Assembly: GCF_018332715.1 (NCBI RefSeq)
Contig: NZ_BOQP01000043.1
Coordinates: forward strand, 124,001-188,000
Length of the DNA stretch: 64,000 nt
Source of the DNA: Winogradskya consettensis
GTDB lineage: Bacteria > Actinomycetota > Actinomycetes > Mycobacteriales > Micromonosporaceae
Reading direction: 5' to 3'
The position numbers were made by a program, and so were the translations under genes. Within the stretch, counting starts at the first letter, position 1, and each line of letters starts with the position of its first letter. This document shows positions 31,178 through 38,417 of the stretch, piece after piece. The notes under the pieces were generated by a model. The model worked only from the letters and a program-made list of their open reading frames with translations. It was not told the DNA's origin and ran no database searches.

Positions 31178-32140
31178 CTATCGGAGGCGCGAGGTGGCTG
31201 TTGTGAGGGCTCGGTGGAGGACGCGGGAGTCGCCGAGCATGCCGCGGAGGCGGCGTTCGAGGCCGGCGATGGGGACGAGGTTCTGCGGGGCGCGGGGGTC
31301 CTTGTAGGCCGAGGAGGCGAAGCGGGGCAGGGTGGCTGCCGAGAGCTCTGCCAGCTCGATGGCCTGGTCCGGGGTGAGGTCCGGGGAGCATTCGATGCGG
31401 ACGATGCCGGCCCAGGGTGCGCCCGAGGCTCCGGGGAGGCGGAGGTACCAGGACCAGCCGCCCCAGACCGTGCCCATGCCGAAGACCGGGGTGCGCTGGG
31501 CCGGTTTGAGGGAGGTGACGACCGTGGTCAGGGCCGCCGAGAGGTACTGCTTCTGCTGGGTCTTGATGTAGCCGATCGTGCGGGGCAGCTGGCGCCGGTT
31601 GCGCAGCGGGCCGTCGACCACCAGGAGGTCCGCGCCGTCGGAGCCGTGGTTGCGGGCTTCGCTGGAGATGTCGATCTCCAGGGCGGTCAGCGGGGGCTGG
31701 ACGGCCGCGGGGAGTTTGCTGGCCTCGCCCGTGCCGCTGACGCGGTGGACCTCGTAGCGGACCGAGCCCGCGGTGACGTCCTCCGCTGAGGGGCTGGCGG
31801 TGAAGAGGCCGCGGGCGACGCGGGCGCCGGCCAGCTCGGCGCGGCCGTTGTGGAGGTCGCAGCGGACCACGCCGGCGGCGTAGGAGGCGGCCAGGCCCGC
31901 GTAGGACTGGCCGTCCTCCTCGGCTGTCCAGAGGCCCGCGTCGTTGCGGCGCACACCGTCGACCAGGAAGACGACGTCCGGGGGTTTCAGGCGGGCCGGG
32001 ACGTCGACGGGGGCCCACTGGTCGGCGGGGACCTCGACGTCGGTGTTGACCTGGGCGCTGCTGGGTGAGCCGGGGCCGTCCGCTGCGTCGCCGCCTTCGA
32101 AGGAGGCTCCGTAGGACGGGTCCCACGCGTCGACGAACAT
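31178..32140 (-). CDS. nurA: NurA-domain 5'-3' nuclease
   Basis: A 320-residue protein matching NurA nucleases. The first acidic motif is VVFLVDGVRR (Asp about 61) and the second is LLVVDGPL (Asp about 176). Next comes IGYIKTQQKQYL, where the family has its Lys motif. The C-terminal VRIECSPD and AYKDPRAPQNLVPI segments fit the last conserved part. NurA partners HerA in resecting DNA ends. It is the last gene of the herA-sbcD-sbcC-nurA operon. The ATG at 32140 is 5 bp past the sbcC stop; an upstream TTG (32149) overlapping that stop is the alternative. Family assignment is by motif only. Confidence 0.75.
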   Translation of the reverse strand: MFVDAWDPSYGASFEGGDAADGPGSPSSAQVNTDVEVPADQWAPVDVPARLKPPDVVFLVDGVRRNDAGLWTAEEDGQSYAGLAASYAAGVVRCDLHNGRAELAGARVARGLFTASPSAEDVTAGSVRYEVHRVSGTGEASKLPAAVQPPLTALEIDISSEARNHGSDGADLLVVDGPLRNRRQLPRTIGYIKTQQKQYLSAALTTVVTSLKPAQRTPVFGMGTVWGGWSWYLRLPGASGAPWAGIVRIECSPDLTPDQAIELAELSAATLPRFASSAYKDPRAPQNLVPIAGLERRLRGMLGDSRVLHRALTTATSRLR

Positions 32141-32145
32141 TCTGG

Positions 32146-34635
32146 TCAAAGGCCAAGCCTCTCCACGTGTGCCGTACGGGCGTCCTTGTGCACCTCGAAG
32201 CGGACCGGGACCCGTTCCGCGAGGGCGTGCACGTGGGTGACCACGCCGACCATGCGGTCACCGCGGGCCGCCAGGTTCTCCAGGGTGGCCGCGACCACGT
32301 CGAGCGTGGCGGCGTCCAGGGTGCCGAAGCCCTCGTCCAGCACGATCGACTCCAGGCTGGCCGCCGTGGTCGACATGCCGGCGAGCTGCTCGGAGAGGGC
32401 CAGGGCGAGCGCGAGGGAGGCCTGGAACGTCTCGCCGCCGGACAGCGTGCGCACGGCCCGGCGCAGGCCCGCGTCGTGATGGTCGACGACGTAGAACTCG
32501 CCCTTGTCGTGCATGAGGTCGTACTGGCCACCGGTGAGCTCGCGCAGGATCCGCGAGGCGCCGTCGACGAGCAGGTCCAGCGCTTCTTCGAGCAGCCAGC
32601 GCTCGAAGTTGTTGGCGCGCAGGTGACCGGCGAGGGCCTTGGCGACCCGGTTGTCGCGGACCAGACCGGCGCGCTGCTCGGCGTAGGCCTGGGCTTCCTC
32701 GCGCCGGTCGCTGAGCCGCTGCCACGCGGCTTCTGCCCGCTCCGCCGCAACCGCCGCTGCCCGGATCAGGTCCGCGTCGGCGCCACCGGCGGGCGCCGGG
32801 AGCTCCGCGTCGGTGAAGAGGGCGACCACCTCGGTGCGGGCGCGCCGGGTCTCGGCGTTGGCTGCCTCGACCGCGGTGGCGGCCTCGCCCCGGGCCACCT
32901 CGCGCTCCTTGGCGGACTGCCGGGCCCACTCGACCAGCGTCGCCCAGGCGGCGGCCAGGTCGTCGCGGTCGGCCGGCGGGGGCGCGAACCGGGCGACCGC
33001 GTCGCGGACCGCGTCGAAGGACCGCCAGGCCGTGCGCTGCTGCTCCTCGGCTGCGGCGACCGCGGCCTGGGCGCGGCGCTGGGCCTCCCGGGTCGTACGC
33101 ACGTCCGCGCCGGCGTTGTCGAGCTTGCGCTGGAGCTTGGTCAGCTCCGCGAGCCGGGTCTTGAGCGCGTCCTGGCCCGGCGAGTCGGCCAGCGCGACCT
33201 TGACCTCGGCGAGGCGCGACTTGTGATGCTCGAACTGGGCGCGCTTGCGGTCGAGGCCGCGCTCCAGCTCGCGGGCCACGGCGTCGCGCTGTTTCCAGGC
33301 GTTGGCGGCGACGTCGGAGGCCGATCGGGCGGCCTTGCCCTGCTGCTCGGCGGTCTGGACCGCGGAACCGGCCGGCATCGGCGGCACGGTGGTCACCTGC
33401 TGCTCGCAGACCGGGCATTCATGGCCGGCGGTGAGGTGGGCGCGCAGCGCGGCGGCCCGGTCGAGCGCCTGCGCCTCGGCGTAGTCGAGGCGCGCCTGCT
33501 CCAGCAGCTGCTCGGCGCCGAGCTTGGCGTGGTGGGCCAGCTCGGCGGAGGCCACGGCGTCCTTGCACTCGACCTCGGCGACGGAGACCTGCCCCGCGAA
33601 CCATTCGGCCTGGTCGGTGAGGCGGTCGAACTCGATGTGCCGGTCGAGCATCAGCCCGAGCGAGCCCGCGTCACCCGCGGCCGCGAGCTCACCGCGTACT
33701 TTCTCCTCGAGCTCTTCGGCCGACCGCACGCCGGCGACCGCCTTCTCGGCAGCAACCCGCGCCTCGGCTGCGGCTCGTGAGATCTGTGCGCTTCCTTCCG
33801 GGGTACGCACGCGGCCCAGGAGAGCGAGCTCCTGAGCGACGGCATCCCGGGCGGCCGCGAGCTCGGCCTCCCGATCGCGGACCGCCTTGAGCCGCGGCAC
33901 GGCCTGCTCCACCGCGGCGGTCAGCTCCCGCATGGCGGCCAGCCTCGTCGCAGCCACCTCGACTGCCTCGTCGTCGGCGTCGGCGAGGTTGGCGAGCGCC
34001 CCGTCGACGACCTGCAGCTGCGCCTCGGCCTTGCTCGCCCGCGCCGTCGACCGCGCCTGCACCTCCTCGTAGACGTGCAGCCCGAGGAGGTTGACCAGGA
34101 TCTGCTGGCGAGTGGCCGGCTTGGCGTGCAGGAAGTCGGCGAACTGGCCCTGCGGGAGCACCACGCAGCTGGTGAACTGCTCGTAGGGCAGGCCGACCGC
34201 CTCGACGACGGCGGAGTCCATCTCGGCGGGGGTGCCGGCCAGCACGTCGCCGAGGTCGTCCAGGCTCATCCCGGTGTCGAGCCGGGTCACGTCGAAGCCG
34301 GGCGGCATCAGCTGCAGGCCGGCGCCGGCGGTCTTGACGTTGCCCCGGCCGTCGCGGCGCACCACCCGGGTGGCGACGTAACGCGAGCCGGCGGACTCGA
34401 AGACGAGCCGGACCCGCGCCTCGGTGGACGAGGGCGCGAGTGCGTTGACGATCCCCCGGCTGCCGCCCCAGCGCGGGACGGTGCCGTAGAGGGCGAAGAT
34501 GATCGCGTCGAGCACGGTCGACTTGCCCGAGCCGGTCGGCCCGACCAGCGCGAAGTAGTCGGCGTCGGTGAAGTCGACGGTGGTCTCGTCCCGGAAGACG
34601 GTGAACCCGGCCATGTCGAGCCGCAAAGGCCTCAT
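32146..34635 (-). CDS. sbcC: SbcC/Rad50-type ATPase
   Basis: An 829-residue SMC-like ATPase that with SbcD opens and trims DNA ends and hairpins. Walker A is GPTGSGKST (32-40). The long coiled coils meet at a zinc hook Cys407-Pro-Val-Cys410. The ABC signature is TLSGGETFQASLALALALSEQ (broken after SGGETFQAS) and Walker B is SIVLDEGFGTLDA. It is shorter than E. coli SbcC (1048), from shorter coiled coils, as is common in actinobacteria. Its ATG overlaps the sbcD stop (ATGA). Confidence 0.95.
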   Translation of the reverse strand: MRPLRLDMAGFTVFRDETTVDFTDADYFALVGPTGSGKSTVLDAIIFALYGTVPRWGGSRGIVNALAPSSTEARVRLVFESAGSRYVATRVVRRDGRGNVKTAGAGLQLMPPGFDVTRLDTGMSLDDLGDVLAGTPAEMDSAVVEAVGLPYEQFTSCVVLPQGQFADFLHAKPATRQQILVNLLGLHVYEEVQARSTARASKAEAQLQVVDGALANLADADDEAVEVAATRLAAMRELTAAVEQAVPRLKAVRDREAELAAARDAVAQELALLGRVRTPEGSAQISRAAAEARVAAEKAVAGVRSAEELEEKVRGELAAAGDAGSLGLMLDRHIEFDRLTDQAEWFAGQVSVAEVECKDAVASAELAHHAKLGAEQLLEQARLDYAEAQALDRAAALRAHLTAGHECPVCEQQVTTVPPMPAGSAVQTAEQQGKAARSASDVAANAWKQRDAVARELERGLDRKRAQFEHHKSRLAEVKVALADSPGQDALKTRLAELTKLQRKLDNAGADVRTTREAQRRAQAAVAAAEEQQRTAWRSFDAVRDAVARFAPPPADRDDLAAAWATLVEWARQSAKEREVARGEAATAVEAANAETRRARTEVVALFTDAELPAPAGGADADLIRAAAVAAERAEAAWQRLSDRREEAQAYAEQRAGLVRDNRVAKALAGHLRANNFERWLLEEALDLLVDGASRILRELTGGQYDLMHDKGEFYVVDHHDAGLRRAVRTLSGGETFQASLALALALSEQLAGMSTTAASLESIVLDEGFGTLDAATLDVVAATLENLAARGDRMVGVVTHVHALAERVPVRFEVHKDARTAHVERLGL

Positions 34636-35783
34636 TTGGTGCTGCTCACCTCGTCGTAGAGCTCGTCGAAGAGTTCCCGGACGCCTTCCTCGGCGGTGCC
34701 CTTGTTGTCGAGGTAGTCGCCGAAGAGCTCACGGGGGGACCGCCCGGCGCGCTGGGCCATCCGCTCGCCGGACTTGTCGGGGATCATGTCGGGATCGATC
34801 CGCACCTCGAGCGCGTTGGGCAGCAACTCCTGCACGTCCTCGCGCAGGCCGACCCGGGGCGTCTCACGGACGAAGACACGGAGCCAGGCATCCGGAAGGT
34901 TCACCGTGGCGAGCTGTTCGATGGTGCCGCGCACCGTGCGGAGCGACTTTGCCGAGGTGATGGGCACGTCGCGGGTCTGGGCCGCCTTGTCGACGCCGAC
35001 GTCCACGATCGCCACGGAGCAGACGTTCTCCTCCTCGCCGAAGTCGATCGCGAGCGGGCTGCCGCTGTAACGCACCGGGCCCGGGCCGATGACCCGCTGG
35101 GAACGGTGCAGGTGACCGAGGGCGACATAGTGCGCGTTCTGCGGGAAGACGGTCGGCGGGACGGCGTACCCCATGATGGTGTGCGCCTCGCGCTCGCCGC
35201 CGCCCGCGCTGGCCCCGACCACGGTCAGGTGGGCCGTGAGCAGGTTGACCACGCCGGGCTCGGAGAAGCCCTCGCTCAGCCGCGCGATCAGGCGCGCGAT
35301 GTGATCCGCATACGTCTGGTTGGCCTCGGCGGCGGTCAGGTCGTACATCTCGACGGCGCGGATCGCGTACCGCTGGGAGAGGAACGGCAGGGCAGCGAGC
35401 TGCCACTTCTCGCCGCCCTCGGTCTCGCCCTTGAGGATCAGGTCCTCGGGCTTGTCGCGGACGGAACCGCGCAGCTCGATGCCGGCAGCGTCGGCCCAGG
35501 GCCGCAGCGCGTCGAGGGCCTGGCCGTTGTCGTGGTTGCCGCCGATGGCCACGACCCGGGCCCCGGTCTGGCGCAGCGCCGACAGCGCCCGGGTGACCAC
35601 GCGGGTCGCGTCGGGCGAGGGCGCGGCGGTGTCGTAGAGGTCACCGGCCACGATGACGAGGTCGGGCCGCTCGGCGCGGGCGACGTCGACGACCTGGCCC
35701 AGGACCCGGATGTGTTCCTCGTGCCGGGTGCGTCCCTTGAGGACCTTCCCGACGTGCCAGTCGGAGGTGTGCAGGATGCGCAT
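34632..35783 (-). CDS. sbcD: SbcD/Mre11-type nuclease
   Basis: A 383-residue metallophosphoesterase. All phosphodiesterase motifs are visible: HTSDWHVGK, VAGDLYD, AIGGNHDN, LTAHLTV and ALGHLHRSQ. It is the nuclease partner of SbcC (Mre11 to Rad50) for double-strand-break and hairpin processing. It begins 9 bp after the herA stop and ends overlapping sbcC, so all four genes should be one transcript. Confidence 0.95.
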   Translation of the reverse strand: MRILHTSDWHVGKVLKGRTRHEEHIRVLGQVVDVARAERPDLVIVAGDLYDTAAPSPDATRVVTRALSALRQTGARVVAIGGNHDNGQALDALRPWADAAGIELRGSVRDKPEDLILKGETEGGEKWQLAALPFLSQRYAIRAVEMYDLTAAEANQTYADHIARLIARLSEGFSEPGVVNLLTAHLTVVGASAGGGEREAHTIMGYAVPPTVFPQNAHYVALGHLHRSQRVIGPGPVRYSGSPLAIDFGEEENVCSVAIVDVGVDKAAQTRDVPITSAKSLRTVRGTIEQLATVNLPDAWLRVFVRETPRVGLREDVQELLPNALEVRIDPDMIPDKSGERMAQRAGRSPRELFGDYLDNKGTAEEGVRELFDELYDEVSSTK

Positions 35784-35792
35784 CGCAGAACC

Positions 35793-37553
35793 TTAGAACG
35801 GAATGTCGTCGTCCGAGGAGCCGCTGCGGCCGCCCACGACCGCGAACGGGTCGACGCCCTGCACGATCGAGCGCATCGTTTCGGCCGGCGGCGGCCCGGA
35901 CTCGGACTTTCGGGTGGCCCAGGCCGGGAACGGGAATTCCACGCACAGCGGCACCGGGATGTCGGGCTGGTTGACGAACATCGTGCCGGGCCGGGCCAGC
36001 AGGGCGCGCTGGCGCATCGCCGGTGGCAGGAAGCCGTATTCGGGGCGGGAGGCCTCCGCCGGGTCGAGCCGGCCCACCACGCGGATCGCCGAGTTGGTGA
36101 CGATGCGGCGCTCGACCTCGCTGGCGGTCTGCTGGGCGCCGATCAGGATCACGCCGAGGGAGCGGCCCCGCTCGGCGATGTCGAGCAGCACCTCCTTGAT
36201 CGGCGAGGAGCCCTCGCGAGGGGCGTACTTGTTGAGCTCGTCGAGCACCACGAAGAGCAGCGGGCGACCGGTGCCCGCCTTCTCCTTGTCCTCGAATTCC
36301 GTCTTGAGGGTGACACCGACCACGAAGCGCTGCGCCCGGTCGGGCAGGTTGTGCAGGTCGACGACGGTGACCTGGGCGCTCTCCGCGGTCTTGATCTGGT
36401 GCGGGCGGCGGGCGGCGAGGTCACCGCGGATCAGCCGGGAGAGGTCGCGCTTGCTGCCGATCAGCCGGCGCGCGAACGCGTTGACCGTGCCCATGTTGAC
36501 CGCGCTGCCGGCCCAGGTGGAGCGGGTCTCGTCGTCGGTGAGCTGATCGACGATGTGGTCGACCATGTCGCCGTAGGACCCGAGACGGCGCCCGTCGATG
36601 CTGATGCCGCCCTCGGCGGGGACCGCGTGCCGGGCCAGGTGGGCGGTGACGGAGTGGACGACCATCGTGTACTGCTGGCGCTCGTCGTCGGCGTCCGCGA
36701 AGACATACGGCAGCAGCCGCTTCTCGCAGAACTCCTCGATCGTCCAGTAGAAGCTGTCGACCCCGGTCAGCCGGCTCGCGACGTCGGGCGCACCCGAGGA
36801 GTCGTTGGCCCGCGGCGGCGCATAGACCCGGACGTCCGGGAAGGGCGTCGCAGGCAGATCGAGCAGTTTGTACGCGGCCCGCGTCCGATCGTCGAGTTTG
36901 GTGTTGGGGTGATCGAGGAAGAGCAGGTCCTCGCCCTTGACGTTGAAGATCAGCGCCCGCGCGTTGGTGCCGTCGGCGCCGAGCTGCCCGGAACGGAACA
37001 CCGAGTAGAGCAGGAACGTCGCGAAGCTCGTCTTGGTCGCCACCCCGGAGATGCCGGAGATCGACACGTGCGCGCCGCGGGTGCCGTCGAGGAAGTCGGC
37101 GTTGAGGAAGACGGGCACGCCGTCGCGGCCGGTGCCCATCGGCACCCGGCGCTCCATCCGGTCGAAGTGCAGCGCGGCGTCGCGGGCCGCACCGGTCGCG
37201 CGGTGCACCACGGCGCCCGGGGCCGGCGGCACGTAGAGCTCCGGGTCGACGCGGGTGGTGGTGATCTCGGCTGCCTCCTGCACCAGCGCGGGCAGGGTGC
37301 CCTCGGCGATGGCGAACACGTCCGAGTCGAACTGGGCGCCCTCGTGGCGGGCCCGGACCTGGGTGACCACGCCGGCGATCGTCACCGGCTCGCGGTCGGG
37401 CAGGTCACGCTTGGTCACGACCACGTCGTCGAGCTGCAGGTAGCTGCCAGGTGTCACGGCCGTCCAGAACTGCAACGGGGTCGCGTCGGCGGTGCCCAGG
37501 ACGCGGCCCACGGGGTCATTTGCCAGTTCAACTTCGTCAGACACGCCGATCAT
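35793..37553 (-). CDS. herA: HerA-like DNA translocase with an SSB-like C-terminal tip
   Basis: A 586-residue FtsK/HerA-superfamily ATPase. The N-terminal HAS-barrel-like region begins VELANDPVGRVLG. Walker A is SGISGVATKTSFA (Lys174) and Walker B is LLFVVLDELNKYAP (Asp438-Glu439). Then come ERGRSLGVILIGAQQ and ERRIVTNSAIRVVGR, where HerA places its sensor and arginine finger. HerA hexamers pump DNA through while NurA cuts. The protein ends GRSGSSDDDIPF: the last six residues equal the protein-interaction tip of E. coli SSB. ATG at 37553 is chosen over an open extension upstream that runs through the DnaA-box region. Confidence 0.85.
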   Translation of the reverse strand: MIGVSDEVELANDPVGRVLGTADATPLQFWTAVTPGSYLQLDDVVVTKRDLPDREPVTIAGVVTQVRARHEGAQFDSDVFAIAEGTLPALVQEAAEITTTRVDPELYVPPAPGAVVHRATGAARDAALHFDRMERRVPMGTGRDGVPVFLNADFLDGTRGAHVSISGISGVATKTSFATFLLYSVFRSGQLGADGTNARALIFNVKGEDLLFLDHPNTKLDDRTRAAYKLLDLPATPFPDVRVYAPPRANDSSGAPDVASRLTGVDSFYWTIEEFCEKRLLPYVFADADDERQQYTMVVHSVTAHLARHAVPAEGGISIDGRRLGSYGDMVDHIVDQLTDDETRSTWAGSAVNMGTVNAFARRLIGSKRDLSRLIRGDLAARRPHQIKTAESAQVTVVDLHNLPDRAQRFVVGVTLKTEFEDKEKAGTGRPLLFVVLDELNKYAPREGSSPIKEVLLDIAERGRSLGVILIGAQQTASEVERRIVTNSAIRVVGRLDPAEASRPEYGFLPPAMRQRALLARPGTMFVNQPDIPVPLCVEFPFPAWATRKSESGPPPAETMRSIVQGVDPFAVVGGRSGSSDDDIPF

Positions 37554-37649: not shown

Positions 37650-38417
37650 CTAGCGGCTCCGGGCGTACCGAAGAAAAAGATAGTCGTCCTCGGAGAGCGA
37701 GCTGAGCAGTGACATCTTGCGCGGCGGGCCGTCTTCTCCCGTTGCTATGCGGCCTGCGCTGCCGCCGGCGAGCATCGGAGCGATTGTCAGGCAGAGCTCG
37801 TCGACCAGGTCCTCCGCGAGAAGGGCCCCGAACAGGTGCGGCCCGCCCTCGCACAGAATCTGCGTGGCCCCACGTTTGTGCAGCTCGGCGATCATCCCGG
37901 CGAGATCGGTCAGCACGATGATCTCGGCGGCCTCGGCGAGGCCCGGCGGTGGCTCGGCGCCCGCGCGGGTGAAAACGAGGGGGCGGACCGGCGCGTCGGC
38001 GAAGACCAACTGCTTCGGATCGAGATCGAGGCTGCCCGAGACGATCACCATGAGGGGGAACTCGGGCAGACCTTGGCCCTTGCGCCAGGTACGGCTGTGC
38101 TCGTTCAGGCGCAGCCCGTCGTAGTTCTCCGCGCGCACCGTGCCGGCCGCGACGACCAGCGCGTCGCAGACCATCCGCAGCGTGTCGAAGATCTTCTTGT
38201 CCCCCGGGCCACCCAGCGCGCCGGACTTGCCGTCGACCGTCGCCGCCCCGTCCACGCTGCTGATGAAGTTGACCCGCAGTGTCGGGGACGCCATCCGTGG
38301 GTAGCGGTCCGCGAGGTGATCAGGGATCATGGCGAGGCCGGTCCGGTGCTGACAGTCGCACCAGGAACCACCCCGGCAGTCCTCGTGCCGCAGCTCCCGG
38401 CAGGCAGGACAGATCAT
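37650..38417 (-). CDS. RibD-C-type (dihydrofolate-reductase-fold) reductase with Cys-rich N-terminus
   Basis: A 255-residue pyrimidine-reductase-family protein. The RibD C-terminal domain starts at LRVNFISSVDGAATVDGKSG and includes DALVVAAGTVRAENY, ILCEGGPHLFGALL and ELCLTIAPMLAGG. It resembles the riboflavin-pathway reductase and is widespread in actinobacteria outside riboflavin operons, where the substrate is unknown. The first 28 residues contain CPAC, then C, then WCDC, a possible zinc site. A start at Met30 would omit it. Confidence 0.85.
   Translation of the reverse strand: MICPACRELRHEDCRGGSWCDCQHRTGLAMIPDHLADRYPRMASPTLRVNFISSVDGAATVDGKSGALGGPGDKKIFDTLRMVCDALVVAAGTVRAENYDGLRLNEHSRTWRKGQGLPEFPLMVIVSGSLDLDPKQLVFADAPVRPLVFTRAGAEPPPGLAEAAEIIVLTDLAGMIAELHKRGATQILCEGGPHLFGALLAEDLVDELCLTIAPMLAGGSAGRIATGEDGPPRKMSLLSSLSEDDYLFLRYARSR

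Follow-up and report, generated by a model that had tools for sequence, protein, structure and literature searches.

The question raised by this locus is why a translocase of the HerA family should end in the SSB-Ct, generally regarded as a recruiting signal that belongs to SSB itself. The protein is encoded on the minus strand of the window (the whole stretch of 64,000 nucleotides of Winogradskya consettensis DNA that was analysed), among the following genes and features:

37650..38417, minus strand: pyrimidine reductase with a RibD_C domain, upstream neighbour of herA (PF01872, 8.7e-32)
35793..37553, minus strand: herA, HerA-family translocase, 586 aa (phmmer to D. radiodurans HerA 7f6d_B)
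35835..35852, minus strand: DPFAVV, second conserved short motif, of the [DN]P[FW] type (sequence comparison across HerAs)
35814..35834, minus strand: variable Gly/Ser linker GGRSGSS (3-8 aa and varying in sequence in 80 Micromonosporaceae loci)
35796..35813, minus strand: codons of the tip DDDIPF (direct reading and conservation), with the stop TAA at 35793-35795
34632..35783, minus strand: sbcD, 383 aa (TIGR00619, 3.1e-52)
32146..34635, minus strand: sbcC, 829 aa (TIGR00618, 6.7e-73, below the model cut-off; PF13558, 1.1e-10)
31178..32149, minus strand: nurA, 323 aa (phmmer to D. radiodurans NurA 7f6d_H, E 1e-20)

Among PDB chains the 586-aa protein matches Deinococcus radiodurans HerA (7f6d_B; phmmer, E 1.9e-149), in an alignment that covers residues 12-308 and 346-552, and thus nearly the whole length; the ATPase-motif stretches GVATKTS and LDELNKYAPREG are common to both. 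The ATG at position 37553 was taken as the start; upstream of it the frame stays open. No Pfam or NCBIfam model matches the protein at E 0.001, and the HerA/mad8 models of PADLOC match it weakly; Pfam gives no SSB domain (PF00436) in it, the SSB domains of this genome lying at three other places. By these comparisons the protein is a HerA motor, not an SSB. The names HerA, SbcC, SbcD and NurA, which the original prediction had given to the operon genes, are likewise borne out by phmmer and by TIGR and Pfam models, the nurA product itself having no Pfam match. The order herA-sbcD-sbcC-nurA, all on one strand, is found in 68 of 80 Micromonosporaceae loci; 66 of these show the full order ribD_C-herA-sbcD-sbcC-nurA, two more hold the four repair genes without ribD_C, and in the remaining 12 the sequence stretch ends at most 18 bases past the last gene found. 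The pyrimidine reductase gene is syntenic with herA, yet is not thought to be part of the mechanism. With nurA in the same operon, this is a NurA-associated HerA; its neighbours, over the synteny seen in Micromonosporaceae, are nurA and sbcCD, and no defence effector of the kind that marks a HerA anti-phage system is among them. In the plasmid herA-sbcD-sbcC operons of Streptomyces (L178) and Candidatus Chlorohelix (L181), a gene for an ImmA/IrrE metallopeptidase is adjoining or one gene away.

Read directly, the minus-strand frame ends in ...GVDPFAVVGGRSGSSDDDIPF, followed by the stop TAA at 35795-35793, which confirms that the C-terminus is DDDIPF, the C-terminal hexapeptide of E. coli SSB, called SSB-Ct (PMC5872125, in excerpt). 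The tail had been placed at 35793-35828, a span that fits RSGSSDDDIPF and the stop but falls short of the first G of GRSGSSDDDIPF, which begins at 35831. A Gly/Ser linker, described as flexible, does precede the tip (GGRSGSS). As the AlphaFold model of HerA (24 Micromonosporaceae rows) has a mean pLDDT of 37.6, it is solely by its composition and variability that this linker is judged to be disordered or flexible, as it probably is.

Conservation of the tail was followed in the best 80 of 175 loci found, all from Micromonosporaceae. The protein ends in DDDIPF in 78 of them, in DDEIPF in one and in GDEIPF in one; Ile-Pro-Phe is invariant at the exact C-terminus in all 80, where the final Phe is followed by TAG in 49, TAA in 21 and TGA in 10. 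Because three different stop codons follow the same Phe, the C-terminal place itself has been kept. Linker length is 3-8 residues among these loci, and at locus L101 the linker is about 12 residues longer than in the window, the end still being DDDIPF. Per codon pair, the six tip codons at the end of the gene show 0.012 nonsynonymous and 0.102 synonymous differences, the linker (compared between pairs of equal length only) 0.368 and 0.220, the 11 codons that follow FPFPAWATR 0.319 and 0.255, and the final 109 codons of the core 0.026 and 0.235. The low nonsynonymous value of the tip against the high one of the linker, together with the same Phe before three stops, places both the tip sequence and its C-terminal position under selection and leaves the linker far freer: purifying selection acts on the tip at the exact C-terminus. 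The window HerA thus has the two marks of an SSB-Ct, acidic residues followed by x-Pro-Phe as the last residues, and a free C-terminus that is under selection.

The original prediction was to fall if the tail were not conserved in close orthologues; HerA is present in each of the 36 genus-sample genomes, the window's own among them, every tail reading DD[DE]IPF, and the conservation extends to other families. In a sample of 394 genomes from the class Actinomycetes, 21 have a HerA match that reaches E 1e-20, of which 18 belong to families other than Micromonosporaceae; three relatives at the level of the order and two plasmid-collection records bring the HerAs from other families to 23. An acidic end with Pro-Phe is present in 22 of the 23 (for example DDDPPPF, DEVPPF, EEDIPPF, DDAPF, DPLPF and DDQPPF), behind linkers very different in sequence and length, and each of the 22 has an acidic residue at -6 to -3; the sole exception is the HerA copy of a Streptomyces plasmid, which ends in DEPPY. 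In the phylum sample, where 91 of 396 genomes have a HerA match, 68 matches outside the class were read, 61 of them at 40% identity or more; the seven below 40% (L245-L251), none of which ends in Pro-Phe, were left out. The Pro-Phe end has a patchy distribution among the 61: it occurs in 11 (families f68, f91, f99 and f121), of which seven have at least two acidic residues close to the end and four have fewer. It is absent from two cyanobacterial plasmid HerAs and one from Chloroflexota (L180-L182). Since just 11 of the 61 carry it, HerA works without a tip. Some lineages of Actinomycetota have lost it or never had it, and among the HerAs examined it is seen within parts of this one phylum. 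On a tree of 86 HerA cores, built by a quick method, with the root not placed and 20 of 83 inner branches drawn open, the Pro-Phe state needs as few as two changes; here, as in the SSB comparison below, the window's own genome is represented by Winogradskya humida (L004), whose HerA is identical.

The [DN]P[FW] motif upstream of the tip is distributed more widely, being present in 22 of the 23 HerAs of other Actinomycetes families and in 48 of the 61 outside the class, 37 of which have no Pro-Phe tip. In tipped HerAs its first residue lies 9-29 residues from the end, in most cases 13-17; in 36 of the 37 tipless ones the protein ends 3-8 residues past it. As far as an unrooted tree allows, DPF is probably the more ancient of the two elements, the tip having been added later and lost again in places. 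In each of the 26 genomes read from the class Actinomycetes, the main SSB has DPW upstream of its tip (loci L001, L148-L167, L311-L313, L315 and L319), within the last 45 residues in all save genomes G371 and G331; within the same distance of the end, the first SSB listed has DPW in none of 60 other genomes. An origin of the HerA DPF as a copy of the SSB tail is weakened by this absence, and also by the 48 HerAs outside the class that have DPF, 37 of them tipless; it is kept as a possibility for the class Actinomycetes only. Beside the tip, DPF may form a second docking site.

The recurrence of such ends was gauged with a degenerate DNA pattern for [DE][DE]xPF-stop, the reversed pattern serving as control. 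The window's own 10.6-Mb genome has the pattern at five places (two SSBs, HerA, one with TGG in place of a stop, and one 51-aa frame opposite another gene, which we take to be rho) and the control also at five; 12 genomes of the Actinoplanes group (own included) have 64 pattern sites against 62 for the control, so that number alone says nothing. A true stop is present at 35 of the 64, comprising 12 HerAs, 17 ends in DEPPF and six others that occur once each (DDPPF, EEPPF, EDLPF, DEAPF, DEKPF and DEGPF). Of the 17 DEPPF loci, 15 encode an SSB, with every one of the 12 genomes represented, and two encode something else. The HerA site is found in 12 of 12 genomes and the SSB site in 12 of 12; because the eight other true-stop sites are each found in one genome, HerA and SSB alone recur with [DE][DE]xPF ends in this sample. 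The case for the tip thus rests on which genes recur and on conservation, not on the pattern count.

Isolated SSB-like ends were encountered in a few other proteins. The two non-SSB loci ending in DEPPF are a 351-aa frame without Pfam or PADLOC match (L359:1504-2556, genome G002), which ends in LADEPPF, and a 110-aa frame (L368, genome G004), which ends in GEDEPPF. A Shedu nuclease (L333:277-1515, genome G003; SduA_C PF14082, 1.4e-18; PADLOC SduA, 1.7e-79) ends in EEDPWPEPASYRDPWDDPPF, with DPW and acidic-PPF as in actinomycete SSB tails; its 98% near-twin (L361, genome G027) also has such an end, which is absent from five more distant Shedu relatives examined.

The two tip-bearing SSBs of the organism itself end in DDEPPF, the third SSB-domain protein having no tip, so that the HerA tip is identical to that of E. 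coli SSB and not to the local one. The tail of the main SSB was compared with that of HerA in 83 HerA-bearing Actinomycetota genomes, leaving out G516 (SSB fragment), G605 (SSB cut by the contig end) and G660 (only short SSB paralogs); in G632, the SSB ending in GSF (L327) was chosen by hand as the main one, a second there ending in DDLPF (L282). Both proteins end in Pro-Phe in 36 genomes, SSB but not HerA in 17, neither in 30, and HerA but not SSB in none; thus, of the 53 genomes with Pro-Phe on the main SSB 36 have the HerA tip, and of the 30 without it none does. The association has a Fisher p of 1.2e-10 over rows related by descent; behind it stand two changes in HerA and five in SSB on the tree, and an independent-pairs test yields 1-3 pairs, most of them without contrast. 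This co-occurrence fits a shared receptor, although it is no proof of one, with few evolutionary changes to draw on. The residue before Pro-Phe (I, P, L, A, V or M in HerA; P or V in SSB) shows no strict match by eye. The SSB tip is generally regarded as near universal; the 30 of 83 main SSBs without Pro-Phe end in GGF, GSF, ETPLDA, PTGA, EVHAA and similar sequences (L254-L256, L258, L260, L261, L283-L292, L294, L295, L298-L306, L308, L309 and L327).

The HerA end is very probably a functional motif of the SSB-Ct type, predicted here. It is likely that the tail is a bona fide short linear motif of this type that docks on SSB-interacting proteins at resected ends; the docking itself we infer. 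Given the strict conservation of the tail, the motor may well recruit SSB-binding repair enzymes with it, or compete for them. HerA of D. radiodurans being reported to form a stable hexamer with a disordered C-terminal stretch of 14 residues (excerpt of PMC9960219), one ring could display up to six such tips around the motor. Their terminal Pro-Phe would insert into the pocket that SSB-interacting proteins use for SSB, and the tips would bring the partner to DNA ends on which HerA-NurA-SbcCD is at work, ahead of or during the coating of the fresh single strand by SSB; alternatively, the motor could displace SSB from a shared partner. The best guess for the partner is RecO, which is present in the own genome. 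RecJ, also considered, was set aside, since its model TIGR00644 has no match there. We lean slightly towards the wider reading that actinobacterial HerA has acquired the recruiting code of SSB and calls the SSB interactome to the DNA end before SSB arrives, or competes with SSB for it. If this is true, a resection motor with an SSB-Ct links the processing of DNA ends to recombination with no need of SSB as intermediary, and the tip could account for the coupling of HerA-NurA-SbcCD to recombination in these bacteria. A systematic search for non-SSB proteins that end in SSB tips is suggested by the same considerations.

Four other readings have to be weighed against a motif that docks on SSB-interacting proteins. 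The tip could bind SbcD, SbcC or NurA, encoded in the same operon, or else a pocket that has nothing to do with SSB, its likeness to SSB being convergent; the conserved gene order in 68 of 80 loci and the binding of archaeal Mre11 to HerA (PMC2288612, in excerpt) agree with this, but herA, sbcD and sbcC are also grouped where HerA is tipless (L180, L181) and SSBs and HerA are the only proteins of the genus sample in which the tip recurs, which makes this reading unlikely. Distinctly improbable is a tail that acts on HerA itself, as a DNA mimic at the pore that keeps the ring switched off and gives way only to DNA or a partner: the acidic residue at -6 to -3 in all 22 PF-ending HerAs of other Actinomycetes families would suit such a role, which leaves unexplained both the likeness to SSB tips and the C-terminal Ile-Pro-Phe, invariant in 80 of 80 loci ahead of three stop codons. 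By analogy with mycobacterial SSB, whose C-terminus activates ClpX in a manner that depends on the Phe (PMC7847540, in excerpt), the tip might engage ClpX and so serve chaperone or proteolytic control rather than recombination; the case is one of analogy only, and we hold it to be highly improbable. A tip that is chance or inherited sequence without function would suit its confinement, among the HerAs read, to parts of one phylum and the lineages that lost or never had it, yet deserves next to no credence, being contradicted by conservation (0.012 nonsynonymous change in the tip against 0.368 in the adjoining linker).

The docking motif preferred here can be set beside several known systems. 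Among the titles and abstract openings listed, mostly of open-access papers and with bioRxiv preprints excluded, none describes an SSB-like tip on HerA or mimicry of the SSB-Ct. The HerA-NurA of Deinococcus (7f6d) belongs to the same families (HerA, E 1.9e-149; NurA, E 1e-20); the accessible part of its description (PMC9960219) mentions no SSB-like tip, and the alignments reach residues 601-607 of 618. RecJ of D. radiodurans binds the SSB-Ct through its C-terminal domain (PMC4846377) and also binds HerA (PMC4663267), findings that the excerpts of these two papers do not connect through a HerA tip; RecJ is thus a HerA partner in Deinococcus, whereas the RecJ model finds no counterpart in the genome to which the window belongs. 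The archaeal herA-mre11-rad50-nurA operon links the same four gene families (excerpt of PMC2288612), a likeness of gene content. HerA-type ATPases are likewise common to anti-phage systems such as HerA-DUF4297 (excerpt of PMC12198126), from which the window HerA differs in having NurA, with SbcCD, as its partner, in a locus that is syntenic across Micromonosporaceae. With the SSB-Ct, finally, the HerA tail has in common acidic residues, a hydrophobic residue and Pro-Phe at the C-terminus after a Gly/Ser-rich linker; SSB carries them behind an OB-fold SSB domain, in place of which the window protein has a HerA motor.
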